Notes under the pieces: generated by a model
The model's database searches: none
What the model saw: only the letters and a program-made list of their open reading frames with translations
Told to the model about the DNA's origin: nothing
Assembly: GCA_030830105.1 (NCBI GenBank)
Contig: JAURNP010000151.1
Coordinates: 1 to 39,256, forward strand
Length of the DNA stretch: 39,256 bases
From: Rhodothermales bacterium
GTDB lineage: Bacteria; Bacteroidota; Rhodothermia; Rhodothermales; UBA10348
Direction: 5' to 3'
Position numbers and translations under genes: made by a program
In this document: positions 14,848 to 27,418 of the stretch, piece after piece
Numbering within the stretch: position 1 is the first letter of the stretch
How the letters are laid out: every line of letters starts with the position of its first letter

Positions 14848-16443
14848 ATGTCGTATCGCGTTCTTCTGACCGACTCTCTACACCCGGTCTGTTATGAATT
14901 GCTAGAAGCAGCAGGAATGGAGGCGGTTGACGCCTCGAAGTGGGATGATGAGCGCATCACGAATGAGTGTGATGGCTTTGATGCCTGGATCGTCCGAAGT
15001 GGGACGACCATTACGGCTGATTGGATCGAGCAGGCAACGAAACTTAAAGTTGTCGGTCGTGCAGGGGTGGGCGTTGACAATGTGAACCTTGAAGCCGCCA
15101 CAAAGCGCGGCATTCTGGTCCTCAACGCTCCCGCAGGAAATACGCTGTCGACGGCAGAGCACACCATGGCACTCATGATGAGCGTCGTTCGGAACGTTCC
15201 CGGTGCCGTTGCCTCGATGAAAGAAGGTGCCTGGAACCGAAAAGCATTCATGGGAACGGAGCTTTTTGGAAAGACCCTTGGTGTAGTCGGGCTGGGGAAG
15301 ATCGGAAAAGAAGTCGCTTCACGAGCTGCCGCATTCGGCATGGATGTGATTGGAAGTGATCCCATGATGACGAGCGAAGCCGCCGAGCGTATCGGCATCG
15401 AGCTGGTTGATGTGGATACCATCTTCGAACGCGCTGACGTCATCACTTTCCATACTCCGTTGGTTGCCTCGACCCGAGACCTGATAAATGATCAGACAGT
15501 CGCACGCTGCAAAAAGGGCGTGTTTATTCTCAACTGCGCGCGCGGAGGTATCGTAGACGAGGGAGCTCTCTTGCGAGGACTCGAGTCGGGTCAGGTGGGT
15601 GGTGCCGGGATGGATGTCTACTCGAGCGAGCCACCGCCGAACTCACTTCGTCCGCTCATCGATCATCCGGCCGTGGTATGTACACCACATATCGCAGCCT
15701 CGACGGAGGAAGCTCAGGAGAAAGTTGCCCGTCAGGTGACGGATCAAGTTATTCGGGCGCTGACCTCCGAGCCGGTGCTGACGGCTGTGAATGCAATGGC
15801 CGTCAGACTGGCTGCGAAGTCCGAGGTCAAGCCCTACCTGTCCCTTGCAGAGCACCTCGGTAGTGCAACGGGTCAATTGGCTCCGGGGCGCTGTTCCAGT
15901 ATCAAGGTGCGTTGTCACGGCGAAGTGCCCCGCAAATACATGGACGTGATCCAGGTTGCCGCGCTGAAAGGATATCTGCAGTCGGGCTGGAGTGATCCGG
16001 TCAACCTGGTCAATGCTCCGGTTATCGCTGAAGAGGCCGGTATCGCGGTGGACGTCGAGACGTTCCACGCAGAGACCAGTCATACAAATCTGGTGGAACT
16101 ACAGCTGCAAACCGAGGCTGGAGCATTCACCATGGCAGGAACCCTGTTTGGCGACCGAGAAGGCCGCGTGGTATCTATTGATGGGTATGCCCTCGAACTA
16201 CCGCTACACGGGCGAATGTTGCTCTATCGTAATCAGGACCGTCCAGGGATGCTTGCTGCCGTGGGTTCGTTGCTTGCGGAGAAGTCAGTCAACATTGGTA
16301 GCATGGCGCTGGGACGCAATGAACCTGGGTCTGAGGCGCTGACGGTCATTGCCGTGGATGAGCCTATTCCAGCCGATACGCTGGAAGCCGTCTCGAACCT
16401 GGACGGGGTCCATCGGGTGAGCATGCTCGAATTCATGCCTTGA
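14848..16443 (+). CDS. serA: D-3-phosphoglycerate dehydrogenase (long form with ASB and ACT domains)
   Basis: GRAGVGVDNVNLEAATKRGILVLNAPAGNTLSTAEHT, LGVVGLGKIGKEVASRA, NCARGGIVDEGAL, C-terminal ACT region RPGMLAAVGSLLAEKSVNIGSMALGR. Confidence 0.95.
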   Translation: MSYRVLLTDSLHPVCYELLEAAGMEAVDASKWDDERITNECDGFDAWIVRSGTTITADWIEQATKLKVVGRAGVGVDNVNLEAATKRGILVLNAPAGNTLSTAEHTMALMMSVVRNVPGAVASMKEGAWNRKAFMGTELFGKTLGVVGLGKIGKEVASRAAAFGMDVIGSDPMMTSEAAERIGIELVDVDTIFERADVITFHTPLVASTRDLINDQTVARCKKGVFILNCARGGIVDEGALLRGLESGQVGGAGMDVYSSEPPPNSLRPLIDHPAVVCTPHIAASTEEAQEKVARQVTDQVIRALTSEPVLTAVNAMAVRLAAKSEVKPYLSLAEHLGSATGQLAPGRCSSIKVRCHGEVPRKYMDVIQVAALKGYLQSGWSDPVNLVNAPVIAEEAGIAVDVETFHAETSHTNLVELQLQTEAGAFTMAGTLFGDREGRVVSIDGYALELPLHGRMLLYRNQDRPGMLAAVGSLLAEKSVNIGSMALGRNEPGSEALTVIAVDEPIPADTLEAVSNLDGVHRVSMLEFMP

Positions 16444-16547: not shown

Positions 16548-16576
16548 TTGACAAACGGAATACGTCCCTCTATATT
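16548..16576 (+). promoter_or_regulatory. Sigma70-like promoter upstream of the TonB receptor leader
   Basis: TTGACA (16548-16553), 17-bp spacer, TATATT (16571-16576). Confidence 0.55.
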
Positions 16577-16680
16577 CGGTAATCGTTTCGGAAACACGGA
16601 TTGTTCAACCAGGAAAGGACCGCTTTTGGAACTTCGTTACAGCATTTCAACCACCACCTTTCAAGCGAAACCTGAAATCT

Positions 16681-17044
16681 GTCGCGAGCGCCCAGCGCGC
16701 GCGACTGCGCCTGTTGGAGCTGTGAAGTCGATTTCGTGGGCATACACTAGTATGCAGGACGTCAACCAGATCCGGTCCCCCCGGGCTGTACAATCCCATC
16801 CGACCCATTTTTTCGTGCTTGGCACGGGAAACGCTGAAAGCGCGCGTGGCGCGCTCGATGCAAAACTGCCGACAGCATGACGGAGTCATCCCGACTGCTT
16901 GAAGCGAATTGTTCGATGCAGATTTGCATTATGCAAACCACACGTGCGAAGCACGACACCATTGCAAGGATGGCCTTGCAAACGACTGTTGCAGGTTCTT
17001 CCTGCAAGCAAACATGCGCTCATTCCGATGTGGGAATGACGCGC
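16681..17044 (+). repeat. Array of about 10 consecutive stem-loops in the 5' leader of the TonB receptor gene
   Basis: Stems read directly: 16681-16705 (GTCGCG/CGCGAC plus inner GCG/CGC), 16740-16755 (GCATAC/GTATGC), 16814-16826 (CGTGC/GCACG), 16839-16855 (AGCGCG/CGCGCT), 16877-16889 (ATGAC/GTCAT), 16923-16937 (TTTGCA/TGCAAA), 16943-16955 (CGTGC/GCACG), 16962-16981 (TTGCAAGG/CCTTGCAA), 16989-17007 (TTGCAGG/CCTGCAA), 17016-17044 (TCATTCC/GGAATGA plus GCGC/GCGC across a bulge). Confidence 0.75.
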
Positions 17045-17076
17045 AGCACTTATTAAGCCACACATCAATTCACTAG

Positions 17077-17082
17077 AGGAGG
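17077..17082 (+). promoter_or_regulatory. Shine-Dalgarno for the TonB receptor
   Basis: AGGAGG 6 nt upstream of ATG 17089. Confidence 0.7.
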
Positions 17083-17088
17083 TAGCTT

Positions 17089-20000
17089 ATGTTACGTAAA
17101 TGGGGCATGATTGTACTCATGCTGCTAGCTACTCCGGCACTGGTTCTCGCCCAGAATACGGGTAAGATCTCCGGGGTAGTGACCGACGCGGATACGGGTG
17201 ATACCATCCCGGGCGCGCAGGTCGTAGTAGTAGGTACAACGCTCGGTGCCATTACGGACGTCGATGGGAATTACTTCATCATCGGTGTTCCGGTCGGCGA
17301 GCATGACGTAGAAGCTCGATTCGTCGGTTACCAAGCTCAAACCATTTCAGGGGTGCAGATTTCTTCGGGTTACACCGCGGAACTCAACTTTTCACTCCGG
17401 GAAGGCGTTGAGCTTGGCGAAATCATCGTTGAATACGAACGTCCGCTGATTCAGAAGGACGCCGTTGGTGTTCCTAAGATCGTCGACGCAGAAGAGATCG
17501 TGAACCTTCCGGTTCGCGGTGCAGCAGCAGTAGCCTCGATTCAGGCTGGTGTTGTTTCTGAAGAAGGCTCTGGGACGCTTAACGTCCGAGGTGGCCGAGG
17601 CAGCGAAGTCACGTATTACATTGACGGTGTGAAGGTTGTCGGTACCGCGGCCCTTCCTCAGTCCGCCGTGCAGGAGCAGGAGATGATTATTGGTAACATC
17701 TCAGCTCGCTACGGCGACGCCATGTCTGGCATCATCAGTATCACAACCAAGTCCGGTTCCCCGAATTTCTTCGGTTCGGTCGAGGGTGTGACTTCTGAAT
17801 CTCTCGATGATTTTGGATATAACCTGGCCTCTCTGGCCATCGGTGGTCCACTCCTGGGAGAAAGTGTCAATTTCTTCTTTGCAGCTGAGTATTTGGATCA
17901 GGCAGACAGCGGTCCACGTGCTGCAGGTCAGCTTCGCGTCTCTGACGCAACGCTAGACGCTCTGCGTACTGCTCCAACGTCTCTCATGGCAATGGACGGC
18001 GACGGAAATCAGGTTCTGATTCCTGTCCCTGCGTCATTGGGCGAAGCCACAATGCCTGTGGATCGCTTTGGTGACATTGCAGTCGGTGCTGATAACACAA
18101 TTACGGCAAGTGACGGAACGGTCATCAACGTCCCAGCAGGCGTTGTTGCTTCTTCTATCCAGCCTGATATGGTTCTCAGCTCTGATTACCTGCCTGAGTC
18201 TGCATTCTCTGTTGACAAAGCCAAGCGGCAGAACAACTACAACCGCCTGGCCCTCAACGGTAACCTGAACTTCAACGTCATGGACAACATCCGCATGCGT
18301 GTGGGTGCTCGCTACGTGACGAGTGAAAATCAGGGAATGTCGACGTTTGCAGTGTTCTCTCCAGAGGATGCTAGCGTTTCGACGAATCGCGACATGCAGT
18401 TCTTTACGACATGGACGCACTACCTGTCGAATTCAACGTTCTACCAGCTACAGTTCGACTACACGGATCGTACTGGCGACGGCTGTGATGAGCGGTTCGA
18501 TTGCTCCATCCAGAGTGCCCTGTACCAGGGTGACATCAGCCAGGATGCATGGGCAACCACTCGTGGTTACAAGAACCTCTCGTTCACGAGCGTAGAGGTA
18601 CCTTACACCGACGATCATGGTACGCCTGGCGATCCTTCGGATGACACGCAGGAAGTAGCAACGGTCAATGCACCTACCTACAGCTATCGCTGGCAGGATG
18701 GTCGTTTCCCAACATCGGAAACGGCTGCTCGCATGATCTTTACGGCAGGTGGTAACGGACCAAACGGTTACAGCGAGTTCCACAACTCGCAGGTACGCTT
18801 CCAGGCTACGGCAACGACTCAGGTTGGTCTCCACCAGCTCGAGTTCGGTGGCGAGTTTGAGCAGCAGACGCGTCGTAACTACGGTATCAGCGGATACTCG
18901 CTGCATCGTTTCGTCGATGACACGTCCACGGATCCGTATTCACCAGGCCCAGAGGGCGTTTCCAACGAAAACCTGGACGAAGCTGTTACCAGTTTTGACC
19001 AGCTGTCGTGGGAGCAGCTTGAAGGCGTTACTGGCTACACCGGTTACAACTTCCGCGGCTCGGAAGCCGATACGGAAAACCTGGATGCCTACGTAAATGA
19101 CATCGGTGGCGACGAAGCTTACAATGTGGCTCCGCACAAGCCGATCTACTACGGTGGATATCTTCAGGACAAAATCGAATTCCGCGATATCGTTCTGAAC
19201 GCTGGCGTTCGTATTGACGTTTTCGACAACAATACCCGTACGCTTTTCGATCGGTACTCACGTCTTCCGCTCGAGCGGATCTCTGACGTTGGCGGTACCC
19301 ATCCTAGCACCATCGGATCCGACTTCGTGCCTTACTACAACGGTGGCAATATCCAAGGATATCGCGATCGTGATGGTAACTGGTACGACAATAGCGGTAA
19401 CCAGGTACCTGGTGGAGACATCCTCCTGACGGGTGCTAAGCCGGTTTCGAAAAGCGGTAAGGTCACCGAAGAGTCCTTCGTGGACTATGAGCCTCAGGTA
19501 ACGATCATGCCACGTATTGGTGTTTCGTTCCCTGTTACGGACCAGGCGCTCTTCTTTGCTCGCTACGGTTCAGTGGCCCAGCGTCCTTCTTCCAACTCGT
19601 TCACGTCGCTTGATGGTATGTCTCGTTCTACGGGTCGTATCAGCAACAACGCTCTCGAGCCAGAGCGGACAACCGAATATGAAATCGGTTTCCGTCAGCG
19701 CCTGACGACGCGTTCGGCACTCACGCTCTCCGGGTTCTTCCGTCAGATCGAGAACCTGATCCAGTTGGACGACCTTCGTGAAGCATTCCCTCAGGGATAC
19801 TCCACGTACGGTAACAAGGACTTCGGTACGGTTAAAGGATTCGAACTCGACTTTGACCTTCGTCGCACGAACAACGTCGCAGCGAAAGTCAACTACACGA
19901 TGTCATTCGCTGCAGGTACGGGTTCCAACGCGTCCTCAACGAGCCTGATCGTGTGGATCGATGAGACTCCTCCGAACTTCATTTCACCTCTGGACTTTGA

Positions 20001-20505
20001 CCAGCGCCACACGTTCAACGTGTCTCTGGACTATCGTCTTGGTGAGGGAGAAGGTCCGACTCTTGGCGGAACCAACCTGTTCGAAAACTTTGGTGTTAAC
20101 GTGCTCATGAACGCTCGTTCAGGCCAGCCTTACACACCTCAGGTCGAGCCATTCAGCCAGATCGAGTCCAAAGCTCCGGTACCAGCCGGTGGCGTGAACT
20201 CAGCCCGTATGCCTTGGAGCAGCCGTATTGACCTTCGCGTCGATCGCAAGTTTGCCGTAGGCGAACGCTCCACGCTGTCTGCATTCCTGTGGGTCCAGAA
20301 CCTGCTTGATCAGGTCAACCAGCAGGGTACATGGGACTACACGGGTCTCCCAGATGATGATGGCTTCCTGGCAACGTCCGGTGGTCAGCAGTTCCTGAGT
20401 TCCAGTGTGCCTGTTGCAGAGACGATTTATCGTCACCGCAACCGCCAGCTGGGCAACTTCGGAATCCCACGTTTGACACGAATCGGTGTTCGTCTTGACT
20501 TCTGA
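17089..20505 (+). CDS. TonB-dependent outer-membrane receptor with N-terminal carboxypeptidase-regulatory-like domain
   Basis: Signal peptide; GKISGVVTDADTGDTIPGAQVVVVGTTLGAITDVDGNYFIIGVPVGEHDVEARFVGYQ; plug-like LNVRGGRGSEVTYYIDGVKV and RYGDAMSGIISITTKSG; C-terminal aromatic residue (LTRIGVRLDF). Confidence 0.9.
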   Translation: MLRKWGMIVLMLLATPALVLAQNTGKISGVVTDADTGDTIPGAQVVVVGTTLGAITDVDGNYFIIGVPVGEHDVEARFVGYQAQTISGVQISSGYTAELNFSLREGVELGEIIVEYERPLIQKDAVGVPKIVDAEEIVNLPVRGAAAVASIQAGVVSEEGSGTLNVRGGRGSEVTYYIDGVKVVGTAALPQSAVQEQEMIIGNISARYGDAMSGIISITTKSGSPNFFGSVEGVTSESLDDFGYNLASLAIGGPLLGESVNFFFAAEYLDQADSGPRAAGQLRVSDATLDALRTAPTSLMAMDGDGNQVLIPVPASLGEATMPVDRFGDIAVGADNTITASDGTVINVPAGVVASSIQPDMVLSSDYLPESAFSVDKAKRQNNYNRLALNGNLNFNVMDNIRMRVGARYVTSENQGMSTFAVFSPEDASVSTNRDMQFFTTWTHYLSNSTFYQLQFDYTDRTGDGCDERFDCSIQSALYQGDISQDAWATTRGYKNLSFTSVEVPYTDDHGTPGDPSDDTQEVATVNAPTYSYRWQDGRFPTSETAARMIFTAGGNGPNGYSEFHNSQVRFQATATTQVGLHQLEFGGEFEQQTRRNYGISGYSLHRFVDDTSTDPYSPGPEGVSNENLDEAVTSFDQLSWEQLEGVTGYTGYNFRGSEADTENLDAYVNDIGGDEAYNVAPHKPIYYGGYLQDKIEFRDIVLNAGVRIDVFDNNTRTLFDRYSRLPLERISDVGGTHPSTIGSDFVPYYNGGNIQGYRDRDGNWYDNSGNQVPGGDILLTGAKPVSKSGKVTEESFVDYEPQVTIMPRIGVSFPVTDQALFFARYGSVAQRPSSNSFTSLDGMSRSTGRISNNALEPERTTEYEIGFRQRLTTRSALTLSGFFRQIENLIQLDDLREAFPQGYSTYGNKDFGTVKGFELDFDLRRTNNVAAKVNYTMSFAAGTGSNASSTSLIVWIDETPPNFISPLDFDQRHTFNVSLDYRLGEGEGPTLGGTNLFENFGVNVLMNARSGQPYTPQVEPFSQIESKAPVPAGGVNSARMPWSSRIDLRVDRKFAVGERSTLSAFLWVQNLLDQVNQQGTWDYTGLPDDDGFLATSGGQQFLSSSVPVAETIYRHRNRQLGNFGIPRLTRIGVRLDF

Positions 20506-20611: not shown

Positions 20612-23600
20612 ATGACTATGCACTACATAAGAAAAATCAGTCTACTACTCGCGGTCCTCGCCGTAGGCCTGATGAGCGCTCCGGCGACTCAGGCCCAGAG
20701 CGTTGGATCGTGTGAGCAGGCCATTGGTGAAGCCTATTTGGACATCAACAATGTGCGTGCTCGTATTCTCAATAACGGAAACCTGTTCTGGCGCGGTAGC
20801 CCGCATGTTTACAACATCCCTAAGGGCGGCCCGTCGAACGCAATCTTCGCATCCGGTATCTGGATGGGTGGTCAGGTAAATGGCCAGCTTCGTCTTGCCG
20901 GTTCTACTTACGGTCCTTACGAGTTCTGGGCTGGTCCACTGAACGACGACGGTACGGCTCCTGCCGACTGTTCCGTTTATGACCGAGTCTACAAGGTCTC
21001 GAAGGAAGACGTCGTTGGGTATGAAGGAAGTGGCCTGGCCACTCCTGACCTCGCTGACTGGCCAACTGGTCTCGGCGCGCCTACTCTCGATGCCAATGGC
21101 GAGATGATTGATCTCACCGACCAGCCGCTTGCAAGCCGTATTGACCGTAAGGTCAACCTCGGAGCCGGCGAGCGTCCAGCTATTCTGGGTGACCAGATGC
21201 TATGGTGGATCATGAACGATCGTGGTAACCAGCACACGCGCACCGATACGCCTCCAATGGGCGTTGAAGTTCACGGTACAGCATTTGCCTTCAACACGGC
21301 AGGTGCTATTGGTAACACGACGTTCTACAAGTACCGCATCATGTACAAAGGTTCGGTACCACTGGAAAACACCTACATGGGTCTTTTCTCAGATCCGGAT
21401 CTCGGAAACTATCAGGATGACTACGTAGGCTCTGACACTACGCTCGGTCTCGGTTTTGTTTACAACTCCGATAACGATGACGAAGGTGGTGAAGGCTACG
21501 GTGATGCTCCTCCAGCTTCCGGTTATGACTTCTTCCAGGGTCCTCTCGTTAGTGACAACGGCATCGATGATGATGGCGATGGCGAAATCGACGAGGACAA
21601 TGAGCGTCTGAAAATGACCGCCTTCGCGTTTTACAACAACGGTGGTGGTGTTCAGGGTGACCCAGGTAACGGTGCCGACATGTACAACTACATGAAGGGA
21701 CGCTGGAAAGATGGGCAGCGCTTTACGCTTGGTGGAAACGGACTCGGATTCTCGAATATTCCGACGTCATTCATGTTTCCTGGCAACCCTCCTGAGTTCT
21801 GGTCAGAGTTTGACTCTGACGGACAGGGTTCGGCGATTGCACCGGCTGACCGTCGTTTTGTTATGGCCACTGGTCCGTTCACGGTGAAGCCGAATGATGA
21901 GCAGGTGCTCGTTTTCGGTATCGTGACGAGCTTTGGTGATGACAACCTCGATTCAGTTCAGAAGATGAAGTCCGATGACGCCCTTGCACAGGCCGTCTTC
22001 GACATCAACTTCGAGCTGCCGTCACCACCCGCTGGCCCTCGGGTCACGACCACGGTTGACAACGGTTCTGTTCTTATCGAGTGGGGATACAACCCATCTG
22101 ATAACAACTATCTGAACAGCTACTCCGTTATCGATCCGCTGCTCTCCGACGATGTTACTGACAACGACTACATTTTCGAAGGCTACAACGTGTTCTCGTA
22201 CGCGAACAGCTCAGATCAGGAAGGCAAACTCCTTGCTGTGTATGACGTTGAAAACGGTATAACTCGTGTGATCGAAGGAACGGATCTGACGTTCATCACA
22301 GCTGATGGAACGGACGCTGGTGTCCAGACCTTCCACAAAGTGAATGGTCTGACGAACTACACGGACTACGAGTTTGGTGTGCAGGCATATGCCTACAACG
22401 CTACCTCCGGTCAGAAAGTGTATGCCGGTCCGATCACGCGTTTCTCCGTAACGCCTCAGATTTCTGAGACCATCGTAAGCGAGGATGCTGTAACCGCAGC
22501 CGCTTCTGCTGACGTTGATCTCGAAGCTGAAGGATCAACAGAAAACGTTGGTAACGGTAGCGTTTCGGCTTCTATCGTTAACCCGCATGCTGTCACGGGA
22601 GATAACTACTCGGTTGAGTTCTACTCGATCGAAGTTGAGGACGGTCACAAGCGCGCTGATGAAGATGCGCATGAGATCAACAACCCAGCTCCGACAGCAG
22701 CCAAGTCTGCGTCAGCCGATGTGACCGTATATGACGTCAAGAATGGCGCAGGATCGATCGTCTTCAATGGCACAGATGCTTACGCCTCCACGCACAGTGT
22801 TCCGATCGGTAACAACGTGCTGTCATTTGACGGTGTCTCTCTGAACGTTCTCGGTCCAGAGCCTGGCTTCACCAACTTCAGTGTTGTTGCCAACGCTAAC
22901 GGTCCGCTTGCAACGCCTGTAGGAGCCGCTGCTGACTGGTACGGATTCCCAGGCCTCGGTCGTCCTTCTGCTGATCAGCAGGTGGGCGGCGGCGCATGGA
23001 TGATCCAGGCCGGTGGCGGTACGGGTCCTTATGAGCAGTTCTTGTCACGTTGGGCACGTAACGGCCCGATTTACGGAGCTTACGACTACGAGGTCCGCTT
23101 CACAGGTCTCGGTACCGGCAACACGGGTCTGAACTACTGGGGCGACGGTGCAGTCATCGATGTTCCTTTCCAGCTTTGGAACGTAGGTATCGGAACGTTT
23201 GACGATCCTTCTGACGACGTCCGTCTCTGTGCTCTCCTTCTGGATAATGATGGAAACGGTGTATGGAATCTGAACGCAGTTGACCACCCGGTCTCCGGCG
23301 CATCAAATGATCCATACACAGATTGGATCTACTGGTACGAGTGTGACTATGCTGCGGAAGTCGCTAACGGCTACGATTTAGCCACCACAGGTGCAGCTCC
23401 ATTCTCTCGTACGGTATTTGTGAACTGGAACGGTGGTGACGTCTCTGACGGCACCCTAGATGCAGTTGACTGTTCTGCTGGCGAATGTATGCCAGAAGAC
23501 GGTACGGTATTCCGCATCGAAACAACGAAGCCTAACCAGCCAGGGGACATGTTCTCCATGTCAACGGATGGTCTTGGCTCACGTGCACGTACGGAAGCAG

Positions 23601-23926
23601 AAAACCGTGACGCAGTCGATGACATCGGCATCACTCCGAACCCATACAAAGGCGCTTCATCCTATGAAGTTAGCCAGCTTGTTGATCAGGTTCGTTTCAC
23701 GAACATGCCTAACCAGGCAACCATTCGCATCTTCACCGTGGCAGGTACGCTCGTTCGTACGCTCGAGAAGAACAGTGCAAGCGCAAGCTTCCCCTGGGAT
23801 CTCACCACGGAAGAAGGACTCCCCGTCGCCAGTGGTATGTATATCATCCACGTCGATTCAGAGTGGGGCGAGAAGGTTCTCAAGTTTGGTGTGGTCAAGA
23901 AGCGTATTCAGCTCAATACTTGGTAA
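20612..23926 (+). CDS. Large secreted/surface protein with T9SS-like C-terminal sorting domain
   Basis: Signal peptide; acidic Ca-binding-like DNGIDDDGDGEIDEDNE; fibronectin-like segment; C-terminus ITPNPYKGASSYEVSQLVDQVRFTNMPNQATIRIFTVAGTLVRTLEKNSASASFPWDLTTEEGLPVASGMYIIHVDSEWGEKVLKFGVVKK resembles T9SS type A/FlgD-Ig-like domains. Confidence 0.75.
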   Translation: MTMHYIRKISLLLAVLAVGLMSAPATQAQSVGSCEQAIGEAYLDINNVRARILNNGNLFWRGSPHVYNIPKGGPSNAIFASGIWMGGQVNGQLRLAGSTYGPYEFWAGPLNDDGTAPADCSVYDRVYKVSKEDVVGYEGSGLATPDLADWPTGLGAPTLDANGEMIDLTDQPLASRIDRKVNLGAGERPAILGDQMLWWIMNDRGNQHTRTDTPPMGVEVHGTAFAFNTAGAIGNTTFYKYRIMYKGSVPLENTYMGLFSDPDLGNYQDDYVGSDTTLGLGFVYNSDNDDEGGEGYGDAPPASGYDFFQGPLVSDNGIDDDGDGEIDEDNERLKMTAFAFYNNGGGVQGDPGNGADMYNYMKGRWKDGQRFTLGGNGLGFSNIPTSFMFPGNPPEFWSEFDSDGQGSAIAPADRRFVMATGPFTVKPNDEQVLVFGIVTSFGDDNLDSVQKMKSDDALAQAVFDINFELPSPPAGPRVTTTVDNGSVLIEWGYNPSDNNYLNSYSVIDPLLSDDVTDNDYIFEGYNVFSYANSSDQEGKLLAVYDVENGITRVIEGTDLTFITADGTDAGVQTFHKVNGLTNYTDYEFGVQAYAYNATSGQKVYAGPITRFSVTPQISETIVSEDAVTAAASADVDLEAEGSTENVGNGSVSASIVNPHAVTGDNYSVEFYSIEVEDGHKRADEDAHEINNPAPTAAKSASADVTVYDVKNGAGSIVFNGTDAYASTHSVPIGNNVLSFDGVSLNVLGPEPGFTNFSVVANANGPLATPVGAAADWYGFPGLGRPSADQQVGGGAWMIQAGGGTGPYEQFLSRWARNGPIYGAYDYEVRFTGLGTGNTGLNYWGDGAVIDVPFQLWNVGIGTFDDPSDDVRLCALLLDNDGNGVWNLNAVDHPVSGASNDPYTDWIYWYECDYAAEVANGYDLATTGAAPFSRTVFVNWNGGDVSDGTLDAVDCSAGECMPEDGTVFRIETTKPNQPGDMFSMSTDGLGSRARTEAENRDAVDDIGITPNPYKGASSYEVSQLVDQVRFTNMPNQATIRIFTVAGTLVRTLEKNSASASFPWDLTTEEGLPVASGMYIIHVDSEWGEKVLKFGVVKKRIQLNTW

Positions 23927-23941
23927 TTGATCAGGACGGAA

Positions 23942-23966
23942 GGTCCCGGCCTCCTCGGCCGGGACC
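23942..23966 (+). terminator. 10-bp GC-rich hairpin
   Basis: GGTCCCGGCC-TCCTC-GGCCGGGACC, just after the stop of the secreted protein. Confidence 0.65.
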
Positions 23967-24025
23967 GGATCGTCCGCTGAATACCTATGATGACAAACTT
24001 GATTATTACAAGGAGGAAATTGGAT

Positions 24026-25069
24026 ATGAACAAGCTGTCCAGAATTTTTCTGAACGCATTCTTGGTCGTGGCTATGCTCGGCATGAGTGCGCTGGACGCG
24101 AATGCTGGAGATGACCGTCGTCGTGGTACGGCTGGCGCCTCCCAGCTGCTAGTGCCGGTTACGGCACGTAGCGCTTCGCTTGGCGCTTCGATGACGAGTG
24201 GTCTTTCTGGTCTTAACGGCCTGGAAGCACTCATCTCGAACCCCGCCGGTCTGGCCACGAACCAGGGAACTGCGGCTCTCTTCAGCCGCATGGATTACGT
24301 TGCCGACATCGGTGTCAACTACTTCGGTGTTGCACAGAGCTTCGGTAATAACAACATCGCATTCCATGTTAACTCATGGGACTTCGGTGACATTCCTGTA
24401 CAGACGGAGCTGTCGCCTGAGATCACCTCGGTGACATACACTGCGTCTTTCATCACGGCCGGACTTACGTACGCTCGTGCCTTTACCGATCGTATCTCTG
24501 CTGGTGCCACCTTCAAGGTGGTCTCAGAGAACATTGACGATCTCTCAGCCTCAGCCGTTGCTGTCGATATGGGTATGACCTATGTCGTTGGTGAGACGGG
24601 TTTGCGTCTGGGCGTTGCGCTCAAAAATATCGGTACCGACATGCAGTATTCGGGTGTTGGTCTCACGCAGCAGGTTCGGCTCCCAAGCCAGCCTGGCAAC
24701 GCGACGAACAACGCTCTCGTCTTCGAGAGCGAAGGCGTATCGCTGCCATCGCTCCTCAACTTTGGTGTCGCTTACACGCGCCAGATGTCTGAAGGCGCAG
24801 TCGTGACGGTACTGGGTAACTTCCGTTCGAACTCGTTCGATCAGGATCAGTACTCAGGCGGTGTTGAGCTCGGTCTGTTTGACATGGTCTACCTGCGTGG
24901 TGGCATGGACATTATTGGAGACAATGATCTGTCCTTCTTCACGGGTACCAACTTTGGTGCTGGTGTAGACCTGGATCTGTCAGGCACTCGCCTGCAGGTT
25001 GACTACGCCTTGCGTTCAACCGACTACTTCAGCAATGTCTCTATGATTACAGCCGCTATCGATCTGTAG
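24026..25069 (+). CDS. PorV/PorQ-family outer-membrane beta-barrel protein (ORF extends to 23987; ATG 24026 with AGGAGG upstream preferred)
   Basis: Signal peptide; ARSASLGASMTSGLSGLNGLEALISNPAGLATNQGTAALFSRMDYVADIGVNYFGVAQSFG; typical PorV/UPF0164-like N-terminus. Confidence 0.75.
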   Translation: MNKLSRIFLNAFLVVAMLGMSALDANAGDDRRRGTAGASQLLVPVTARSASLGASMTSGLSGLNGLEALISNPAGLATNQGTAALFSRMDYVADIGVNYFGVAQSFGNNNIAFHVNSWDFGDIPVQTELSPEITSVTYTASFITAGLTYARAFTDRISAGATFKVVSENIDDLSASAVAVDMGMTYVVGETGLRLGVALKNIGTDMQYSGVGLTQQVRLPSQPGNATNNALVFESEGVSLPSLLNFGVAYTRQMSEGAVVTVLGNFRSNSFDQDQYSGGVELGLFDMVYLRGGMDIIGDNDLSFFTGTNFGAGVDLDLSGTRLQVDYALRSTDYFSNVSMITAAIDL

Positions 25070-25246: not shown

Positions 25247-27418
25247 ATGTCTCGAACGCTGCTGGCTCTTGGCTTCGCTTTACTTCCTTTGGCTATAGCC
25301 TTGGGATGCTCAACGGGCGAAGTTGAAACCTCATCTGCAACTGCCTCGCCAGAGATCGTCTTCAGTAATCTGGGCTCGACCTCAGAATATGTTGGCGATA
25401 CTGTTTGCTTTGATTGTCACGAGGATCAGTATCAGGGCTTTTATGAGCATGGAATGGCAAACTCCATGTATCTCCTGACCAAGGACAATGCTGTTGAGGC
25501 ATTTGGTAGTGAGATTGTTGTCGATTCAACAACGGGGTTGCACTATGAAATGGTTGAGGCAGACTCCGGATACATCCAGATAGAATTCCTGCTGGATGAG
25601 AGGGGAGAACGTACTCATGAACTGGCAAGGACCATGAAATGGGTTGTCGGCTCGGGGACGACGGCGAGAACGTATTTGGCTGAGCAGGATGGGTGGTTCT
25701 ATGAGATGCCCGTGACTTGGTATACGCAACAAGGGCGCTGGGATTTTAGTCCGGGGTATCGGGTCGCCAACAAACGGTTCAATCGTAAAATTGCTGACCG
25801 CTGCGTTGTGTGTCACAACAGCTATCCGGAGCCGGTAGAACAGACCAACGGAATGTTTACCGAAATGCCAACCGGGATTGGTTGCGAGCGGTGCCATGGG
25901 CCCGGCTCAGATCATGTAGAAGCTCGATTGGTGTCGGATCCACCTGAAGGCCAGCCCGATGTGACCATCGTCAATCCCGCTCATCTTTCGTTGGATCTGA
26001 GACTGGACGTTTGCCAGCAATGTCATCTCAACGGAACCGTTTCCCTGCTTCGTGATGACGAGGATCCCTATTCGTACCGGCCTTCACAACCTCTGGAGGA
26101 ATATGTAGCCTTGTACACGGGCCTTGAATTCATTGAAGGGGAGGGGGAAGGTATATCGGTCATCTCCCACGCGGACCGTATGAAGCAGAGTGCCTGTTAT
26201 ACCGAAACTTTGGACACCCTGAGACCGCTAGAATGCACTACCTGTCACGATCCCCATGAAGGGTTCAGGGACCAAGGAGATGCCTATTTCAATGTCACCT
26301 GTATGAGTTGTCATGTAGGTGAAGATTTGAGCTCCATTGATGCAGGCCAGCCATTGGCGGTGCATACTACGTCGGCTAATTGTGTTGAATGCCACATGCC
26401 GCCAACTGACTTGATTGAGGCTCCTCATTCGGCATTTACAGACCATTACATTCGAGTGGTGGACCAGGATGAGCTCGAGCCAGAAAAGTCCACTGAGACG
26501 GACGCCTTGATGGCTCACTTCAATCGAGATCGTATCAAGAACCCCGAAGCCCGACTGTATGAGGGAATGGCTTATATCACCCGTGGTTACCAGGGAGGGG
26601 ATATTGAGTATCTCAATCAGGGAGTCGACATTCTTGATGAGGTTTTTGAGAGTGGACATCAGTTCAGCGAGGCTGTTTACCTGCATGGATATGCACTGCT
26701 GATCCTCAAGCGATTCGACGAGGCTATCCCGTCATTAGAGGAGTCGGTTCGTTTGGAACCGAACAAAGCAGAACGACTGAATGCGTTGGCTCAGGCCTAT
26801 GAATATGCCGGTGATCGTGACCCGGTCCGAATTGAGCGCTTGTATCGTGAAGCCCTTCGTGTGCAGCCTAAACTGGCGGATATCCGGCTTAATCTGGGAC
26901 GGTTTCTGCAGTCCAGAGGAAGGATAGATGACGCCAGAGGACAGTACCGCCAGGTCGTTGAAGACGAATCCTGGAATGCCCTCGGGTACTATAACCTGGG
27001 GACCTTGGCGCTATTGGAAGGGAATCTGGAAGAGGCTGAGGAGCAACTTGGTCAATCGCTGACGTTGGACCCGCTTTCCGGCGCTACGTTGACAAACCTG
27101 GGGCTGGTTCATTTGCAAAAAAACAAGATTGCTGAAGCCCGCAGATTGCTGGAGACAGCTGTCGAACGTGATCCGGAGCTTCCAGAGGCCCTCGATAATC
27201 TTGGTTCGTTGTACCTCAATCTTGAGGTAGAAGAAGAGGCTGTTACCTATCTGAAGCGTGCCACGGAGGTCCGGCCATACGCAGCCGGAATACACGCCAA
27301 ATTGGCCCTTGCATACTTCCGGTTGGAGCGCTATTCCGAGGCGCAGCGGAGTGCACAACAAGCCTTGGCCATCGATCCGAATGAATCCCTGGCACAGCAG
27401 ATTATGCTGGCCCTTTGA
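25247..27418 (+). CDS. Multiheme c-type cytochrome lipoprotein with C-terminal TPR repeats
   Basis: Lipobox-like ...AIALGCSTG; seven CxxCH motifs (CFDCH, CVVCH, CERCH, CQQCH, CTTCH, CMSCH, CVECH); C-terminal tandem TPRs (ALGYYNLGTLALLEGNLEEAEEQLGQSLTLDPLSGATLTNLGLVHLQ...). Confidence 0.88.
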   Translation: MSRTLLALGFALLPLAIALGCSTGEVETSSATASPEIVFSNLGSTSEYVGDTVCFDCHEDQYQGFYEHGMANSMYLLTKDNAVEAFGSEIVVDSTTGLHYEMVEADSGYIQIEFLLDERGERTHELARTMKWVVGSGTTARTYLAEQDGWFYEMPVTWYTQQGRWDFSPGYRVANKRFNRKIADRCVVCHNSYPEPVEQTNGMFTEMPTGIGCERCHGPGSDHVEARLVSDPPEGQPDVTIVNPAHLSLDLRLDVCQQCHLNGTVSLLRDDEDPYSYRPSQPLEEYVALYTGLEFIEGEGEGISVISHADRMKQSACYTETLDTLRPLECTTCHDPHEGFRDQGDAYFNVTCMSCHVGEDLSSIDAGQPLAVHTTSANCVECHMPPTDLIEAPHSAFTDHYIRVVDQDELEPEKSTETDALMAHFNRDRIKNPEARLYEGMAYITRGYQGGDIEYLNQGVDILDEVFESGHQFSEAVYLHGYALLILKRFDEAIPSLEESVRLEPNKAERLNALAQAYEYAGDRDPVRIERLYREALRVQPKLADIRLNLGRFLQSRGRIDDARGQYRQVVEDESWNALGYYNLGTLALLEGNLEEAEEQLGQSLTLDPLSGATLTNLGLVHLQKNKIAEARRLLETAVERDPELPEALDNLGSLYLNLEVEEEAVTYLKRATEVRPYAAGIHAKLALAYFRLERYSEAQRSAQQALAIDPNESLAQQIMLAL

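Follow-up and report, generated by a model that had tools for sequence, protein, structure and literature searches.

What is the function of the run of short hairpins that lies between serA and a gene for a TonB-dependent receptor in an uncultured Rhodothermales bacterium? We analysed a stretch of 39,256 nucleotides (the window), a contig that is part of a metagenome-assembled genome; its named relatives are Rhodothermales metagenome-assembled genomes as well. The first-pass annotation had placed about ten stem-loops at 16681-17044 and suggested, among other roles, a structured 5' leader, a cis-regulatory RNA or a set of protein-binding sites. The genes and the promoter around this interval are as follows.

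14848-16443: serA, the upstream neighbour of the hairpin interval 16681-17044
16548-16576, plus strand: sigma-70-like promoter of the receptor leader, TTGACA-N17-TATATT, 11 of 12 consensus positions
17089-20505, plus strand: the target gene, encoding a SusC/RagA-like TonB-dependent receptor of 1138 aa
20612-25069, plus strand: downstream genes for an 1104-aa protein with a T9SS-like C-terminus and a PorV/PorQ family protein

The receptor matches the Pfam families CarboxypepD_reg, Plug and TonB_dep_Rec; its match to NCBIfam TIGR04056 (E 1e-15) is under the family cut-off. The genes at 20612-25069 probably share one transcript with it. The interval is flanked by serA and the receptor gene, and both promoter hexamers are kept in the family alignments. 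As the promoter ends at 16576, the hairpins would lie within a receptor mRNA leader of about 500 nt, and region 16583-17088 is proposed to be the structured 5' untranslated leader of this mRNA.

Perfect stems with loops of 3-8 nt were counted in 16681-17044 and in dinucleotide shuffles. There are nine stems of at least 5 bp (shuffle mean 2.18; none of 1000 shuffles reaches nine), six of at least 6 bp (mean 0.64, P 0.001) and four of at least 7 bp (mean 0.20; 0/1000 shuffles), one of them of 8 bp. Just 0.2% of 364-nt segments along the contig contain the same number of stems of at least 6 bp. The folding energy is lower than that of shuffled sequences for the leader 16583-17088 (z -4.0), the hairpin interval (z -3.5) and region 16910-17060 (z -3.3). 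When the leader is folded as a whole at minimum energy, a number of the small hairpins are absorbed into longer-range pairings. Thus the run of hairpins described by the first-pass annotation is real, as is the excess of stems of at least 7 bp that it had claimed. The last five hairpins were found at the positions it gave, the fifth having a perfect core of 7 bp (17020-17039) within a bulged stem, and its opinion that no convincing protein is encoded there was upheld: an ORF of 119 aa has no Pfam match. The individual hairpins are listed below.

16740-16755, plus strand: hairpin GCATAC-ACTA-GTATGC, from the stem scan, present only in three members of the genus
16814-16826, plus strand: hairpin CGTGC-TTG-GCACG inside TTTCGTGC..GCACGGAAA, invariant in the genus, with a similar hairpin in other genera
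16839-16855, plus strand: hairpin AGCGCGC-GTG-GCGCGCT, from the stem scan and the genus alignment
16923-16937, plus strand: array hairpin 1, TTTGCA-TTA-TGCAAA, from the stem scan and the genus alignment
16943-16955, plus strand: array hairpin 2, CGTGC-GAA-GCACG, missing in G011
16962-16981, plus strand: array hairpin 3, TTGCAAGG-ATGG-CCTTGCAA, three pairs with double-sided changes, missing in G011
16989-17007, plus strand: array hairpin 4, TTGCAGG-TTCTT-CCTGCAA, two pairs with double-sided changes, missing in G011
17015-17045, plus strand: array hairpin 5, TGCGCTCATTCC-GATGTG-GGAATGACGCGCA, three pairs with double-sided changes, loop invariant

As drawn, the hairpins are 92.7% paired in the genus, and 11 pairs are changed on both sides versus 3.3 in shuffles. 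Compensatory changes within the genus were observed in array hairpins 3, 4 and 5. G011, the most divergent member of the genus, lacks hairpins 2-4, and the hairpins of genera g2, g8, g9 and g10 differ from those of the array. Taken together, these observations indicate that the array is a genuine but fast-evolving RNA structure. Given these losses and replacements, the array as such is mostly genus-specific, and it does not constitute an RNA family of deep conservation. Among the array hairpins, only the fifth, whose GATGTG loop is invariant, is common to genera g1, g3 and g10.

A DNA similarity search across the 27 genomes of the family of uncultured Rhodothermales recovered the leader, or else its two ends, in 24, upstream of the orthologous receptor. 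In the alignment the promoter is followed by a conserved 5' element, the TTTCGTGC..GCACGGAAA hairpin, a variable middle part, and a near-invariant AGCCACACATCA..CACTAGAGGAGGTAGC region that extends to the start codon. Between the 5' element and the start codon, the linker and the hairpins differ freely among leaders, both in length and in sequence. In G011 (G011:C2:413248-416650) the leader is kept and the receptor ortholog is in two overlapping frames with one TGA, either a broken gene or an assembly error; no sRNA of the kind described below was detected there.

16638-16724, plus strand: conserved 5' element, TACAGC..CCCACCTTTCAAG..CCTGA, covarying hairpin 16681-16705, CCTGTTGGAGCTGTG; 29 of 94 columns invariant among 19 leaders from 6 genera

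The hairpin of the 5' element has compensatory changes in seven of its nine pairs, and the near-invariant CCCACCTTTCAAG and CCTGA form long unpaired stretches. The segments ACAGC/GCTGT and CAAC/GTTG are able to close the element, with the outer closing pairs kept only in part in the 19-leader alignment. A TACAGCTTTTC-like core of the element can be traced to other families, 215-285 nt before the start codon. The Rfam scan of the leader yielded no family at the gathering score, in agreement with the first-pass annotation, which had recognised no known riboswitch. RAGATH-24 (Rfam RF03049) was rejected as the identity of the 5' element: the weak, full-length match over 16636-16747 scores 18 bits against a gathering score of 45.3 (E 0.2-0.7, the level of chance), and its aligned pairs are not those that covary. 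No terminator above chance was found in the leader. Nor did any clear fold sequester the Shine-Dalgarno box, which is largely open in the minimum-energy fold.

The promoter, the folding excess, the compensatory changes in the hairpins and the presence of the leader in 24/27 genomes all support the earlier suggestion of a structured, cis-regulatory 5' leader. Conservation in relatives holds for the leader, and covariation within the genus for several hairpins, the array as such being mostly genus-specific. The proposal of protein-binding sites stands in part: the idea of a binding site is retained, but the most conserved site (17056-17082) is outside the interval, 12-38 nt downstream of it, and its likely partner is an sRNA encoded in trans.

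17056-17082, plus strand: predicted sRNA target site AGCCACACATCAATTCACTAGAGGAGG, running into the Shine-Dalgarno box AGGAGG (17077-17082)
G000:C173:7105-7218, minus strand: predicted intergenic sRNA gene of about 115 nt, with a terminator, a covarying stem and the complement of the leader block

This block, the deepest conserved part of the leader, recurs in an intergenic region adjoining pyk, and the candidate sRNA gene is on the opposite strand there. The two loci are separate, the sRNA gene being on contig C173 and the leader on the window contig, C113. In the source genome exact matches to AGCCACACATCA occur only in the leader and the sRNA gene; the same is true across the genus, bar one coding match in G011. 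The sRNA consists of a stem GATGTCT/AGACATC, a loop with ..CTCTGGTGAATTGATGTGTGGCTAC.., and a hairpin of 14-15 bp followed by a T-run; in the source genome the minus strand ends in a 15-bp stem and GCTTTTTT, an intrinsic terminator. Interpretation of the second locus as a same-strand, leader-related RNA was dropped, because the terminator is seen on the other strand. U-tracts are poor in the sRNAs of G006, G007 and G009. A search upstream of the sRNA, confined to sigma-70-like sites, found no promoter, and comparison of the sRNA with Rfam gave no family at the gathering score.

The covariance model found the sRNA in six of the seven genomes of genus g1 and in all six of g10. Across 11 sequences the structure is 97.4% paired, and 15 of its 21 pairs show double-sided changes; these figures lean towards the structure, as the alignment had been fitted to it. 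The gene is syntenic in three genera, next to pyk and/or a small HEAT-like ORF: the homologous HEAT-like frame adjoins it in g1, g9 and g10, and pyk also in g1 and g10. In g10 it adjoins a divergent gene for an Rrf2-family regulator (Pfam PF02082; L142:1781-2230, L130:1021-1470), and a conserved TGTCTTAAAAC motif between the two is a possible operator. The gene adjoining the sRNA in the source genome (L131:1915-3000) encodes a TPR/multihaem cytochrome protein. Its paralog, with 28% identity, is found in the window at 25247-27418, as the last gene of the receptor run. One of the two sRNA genes of G048 (G048:C75:2500-3500, L276) is directly upstream of a receptor paralog on the same strand.

No sRNA was found in G011, whose two-contig genome retains the leader block, or in genera g2-g8, though their leaders keep GCCACACAYC. 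The leader block is also kept in g2, g8 and several other families where no sRNA was detected. Since the block persists where the sRNA was not found, either the sRNAs of g2-g8 may have changed too much to be caught by the patterns used, or the block may serve another purpose there. G022 presents the reverse case, with the sRNA present and no receptor ortholog found. Several other candidates were discarded. Matches to GCCACACAYCA in other genera of the family are nearly all in long reading frames, and none has a fitting terminator; candidates in G045:C407, G048:C193 and G049:C287 pair weakly or are coding; order-wide GATGTGTGGCWAC matches outside family f1 are coding, G055 excepted.

In the source genome, positions 17056-17078 are complementary to the sRNA over 23 contiguous base pairs (one of them G-U), followed by a mismatch and three more pairs. 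Up to about 31 leader-sRNA pairs are possible in sister species. The complementarity continues through the Shine-Dalgarno box in G006 and G008 and ends just short of it in most g10 genomes. Both partners change in concert between clades. In genus g1 the leader has AATTCACTAGAG and the sRNA CTCTGGTGAATT; in g10, ATTTCA and TGAAAT; in G020 of genus g9, TATCACAC and GTGTGATA; and in G055, from another family, AACTAGAGGAGG and CCTCCTCTAGTT. In G055 the sRNA was found first, by the model and the seed, and the leader obtained later turned out to be a 24/24 complement.

Comparison of five representative clades shows nine positions with changes in both partners. The paired fraction over nine distinct leader-seed pairs has a permutation P of 0.0005 against shuffled assignments, and of the 720 assignments of leaders to sRNAs in six clades the cognate one has the best duplex energy. 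Of 14 genomes, 12 have a net interaction energy, after unfolding costs, of -15 to -35 kcal/mol; in the other two (G024, G045) it is near zero. Matching sRNA candidates were observed in G020, which belongs to the source family, and in families f4, f5 and f7; for G048, which has two sRNA genes, and for G045, the leaders were already known when the candidates were accepted. We regard this co-variation of two separate genes as the decisive evidence for the predicted pairing. The sequence GGAGGTAGC at and after the Shine-Dalgarno box (17079-17086 of the window) is conserved across families; full sRNA pairing with it is clear only in G048 and G045 (GGCTACCTCC, CTACCTCC). A second contact between the two RNAs, for instance at the 5' element, was discarded, as the best runs fall at different places in each genome. 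Unconstrained duplex prediction at full lengths was uninformative.

The loop of array hairpin 5 resembles the sRNA seed and is complementary to the middle of the target site.

17027-17066, plus strand: putative pseudoknot, loop GATGTG (17027-17032) with CACATC (17061-17066)

All six pairs are compatible with every sequence of the genus. They are also all invariant and hence do not covary, and thus the pseudoknot is a candidate and not proved.

Other explanations of these data can be considered. That the hairpins arose by chance in a GC-rich spacer and have no function is scarcely credible: hairpins 1-4 are indeed not shared past close relatives, but stem counts and folding energy are above the shuffle levels, and compensatory changes are seen in 11 pairs, with 3.3 in shuffles. 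Another possibility is that the block common to both RNAs lies on the same strand in each and is bound by a protein or the ribosome, so that there is no antisense pair. Such a motif would be consistent with conservation of the leader block even in those genera and families that yielded no sRNA. However, the second locus has a stem and a U-tract at the end of its complementary strand, and the flanks of the block differ between clades and match within each genome, which would not be predicted for a fixed motif; we hold this reading to be hardly probable. It is also very improbable that the leader, or a fragment derived from it, is the regulator and soaks up an sRNA whose main targets lie elsewhere. 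Very long complementarity is typical of such sponges as well as of antisense targets, and G022 retains the sRNA without this receptor. On the other hand, the site abuts or covers the Shine-Dalgarno box in every family that has the block, and the source genome has no exact AGCCACACATCA site beyond the leader and the sRNA gene.

Finally, the leader could be primarily cis-acting, similar to a riboswitch or a thermosensor, with the 5' element sensing a ligand and rearranging the hairpins, and the sRNA being a minor or secondary input. The long invariant unpaired stretches and the covarying hairpin of the 5' element, the folding excess over shuffles, and the retention of a long leader across families agree with this model. 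Moreover, one TonB-receptor leader, that of E. coli btuB, has both a riboswitch and an sRNA site (PMC11162775). Still, no Rfam riboswitch was matched, neither an above-chance terminator nor a clear Shine-Dalgarno-sequestering fold was seen, and the linker and hairpins between the 5' element and the start codon are free to vary. We consider a primarily cis-acting leader unlikely.

With high though not complete confidence, based on comparative sequence data, we propose that a trans-encoded sRNA represses the SusC-like receptor by base-pairing at the Shine-Dalgarno box of its structured leader. The sRNA would be transcribed from the minus strand of the C173 locus, in the same genome as the receptor, and would pair with 17056-17082, covering or abutting the Shine-Dalgarno box. 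This would block ribosome binding and repress the receptor. Repression is the most likely outcome of the pairing, since an RNA over the Shine-Dalgarno box is expected to block initiation and since the FopS and OmrA sRNAs provide precedents. The GAUGUG loop of array hairpin 5 would mimic the sRNA seed and may pair with CACAUC in the target, competing with the sRNA. An extension of this scheme, which we find doubtful, is an integrated switch, where the 5' element (16638-16724) senses a signal and chooses whether the GAUGUG mimic or the trans sRNA occupies CACAUC; if true, a cis mimic and a trans sRNA would compete to read one site.

The candidate sRNA family is new and has a defined predicted target in uncultured Rhodothermales. 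The pair was identified via covariation of two separate genes across genera and families, and not from expression data. The divergent Rrf2 regulator (iron or redox type) beside the sRNA gene of g10 suggests a signal to test.

The literature searched contained nothing relevant on sRNAs in Rhodothermus or Salinibacter. By our analysis the system is a new sRNA-target pair belonging to a known kind and notable for the unusual length of the pairing and for clear covariation between the two molecules. In Bacteroides, FopS sRNAs block translation initiation at the start of SusC-like receptor mRNAs (PMC11697453), and the predicted pair would extend sRNA control of such receptors beyond that genus, with a one-to-one pairing that is directly testable. 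FopS/GibS of Bacteroides thetaiotaomicron (PMC11697453) are trans-encoded, as the candidate described here would be, and come from the same wider bacterial group. However, FopS comprises 14 paralogs that have many targets and a seed at the 5' end (PMC11697453), whereas the Rhodothermales sRNA is mostly a single gene with one very long pairing site that covers the Shine-Dalgarno box. We liken it to FopS/GibS by predicted mode of action and do not file it as a member, the sequence comparison having covered Rfam, with no match. In E. coli, the TonB receptor btuB, whose leader contains a riboswitch, is repressed by OmrA; OmrA pairs through the central part of its sequence, and repression requires binding of Hfq to the mRNA (PMC11162775). 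The btuB leader has a cobalamin riboswitch, whereas none was found in the leader considered here. The OmrA/OmrB-btuB system (PMC11162775) resembles the present one in that a TonB-receptor mRNA has a leader that is long and structured, and in that an sRNA controls translation initiation, here predicted.
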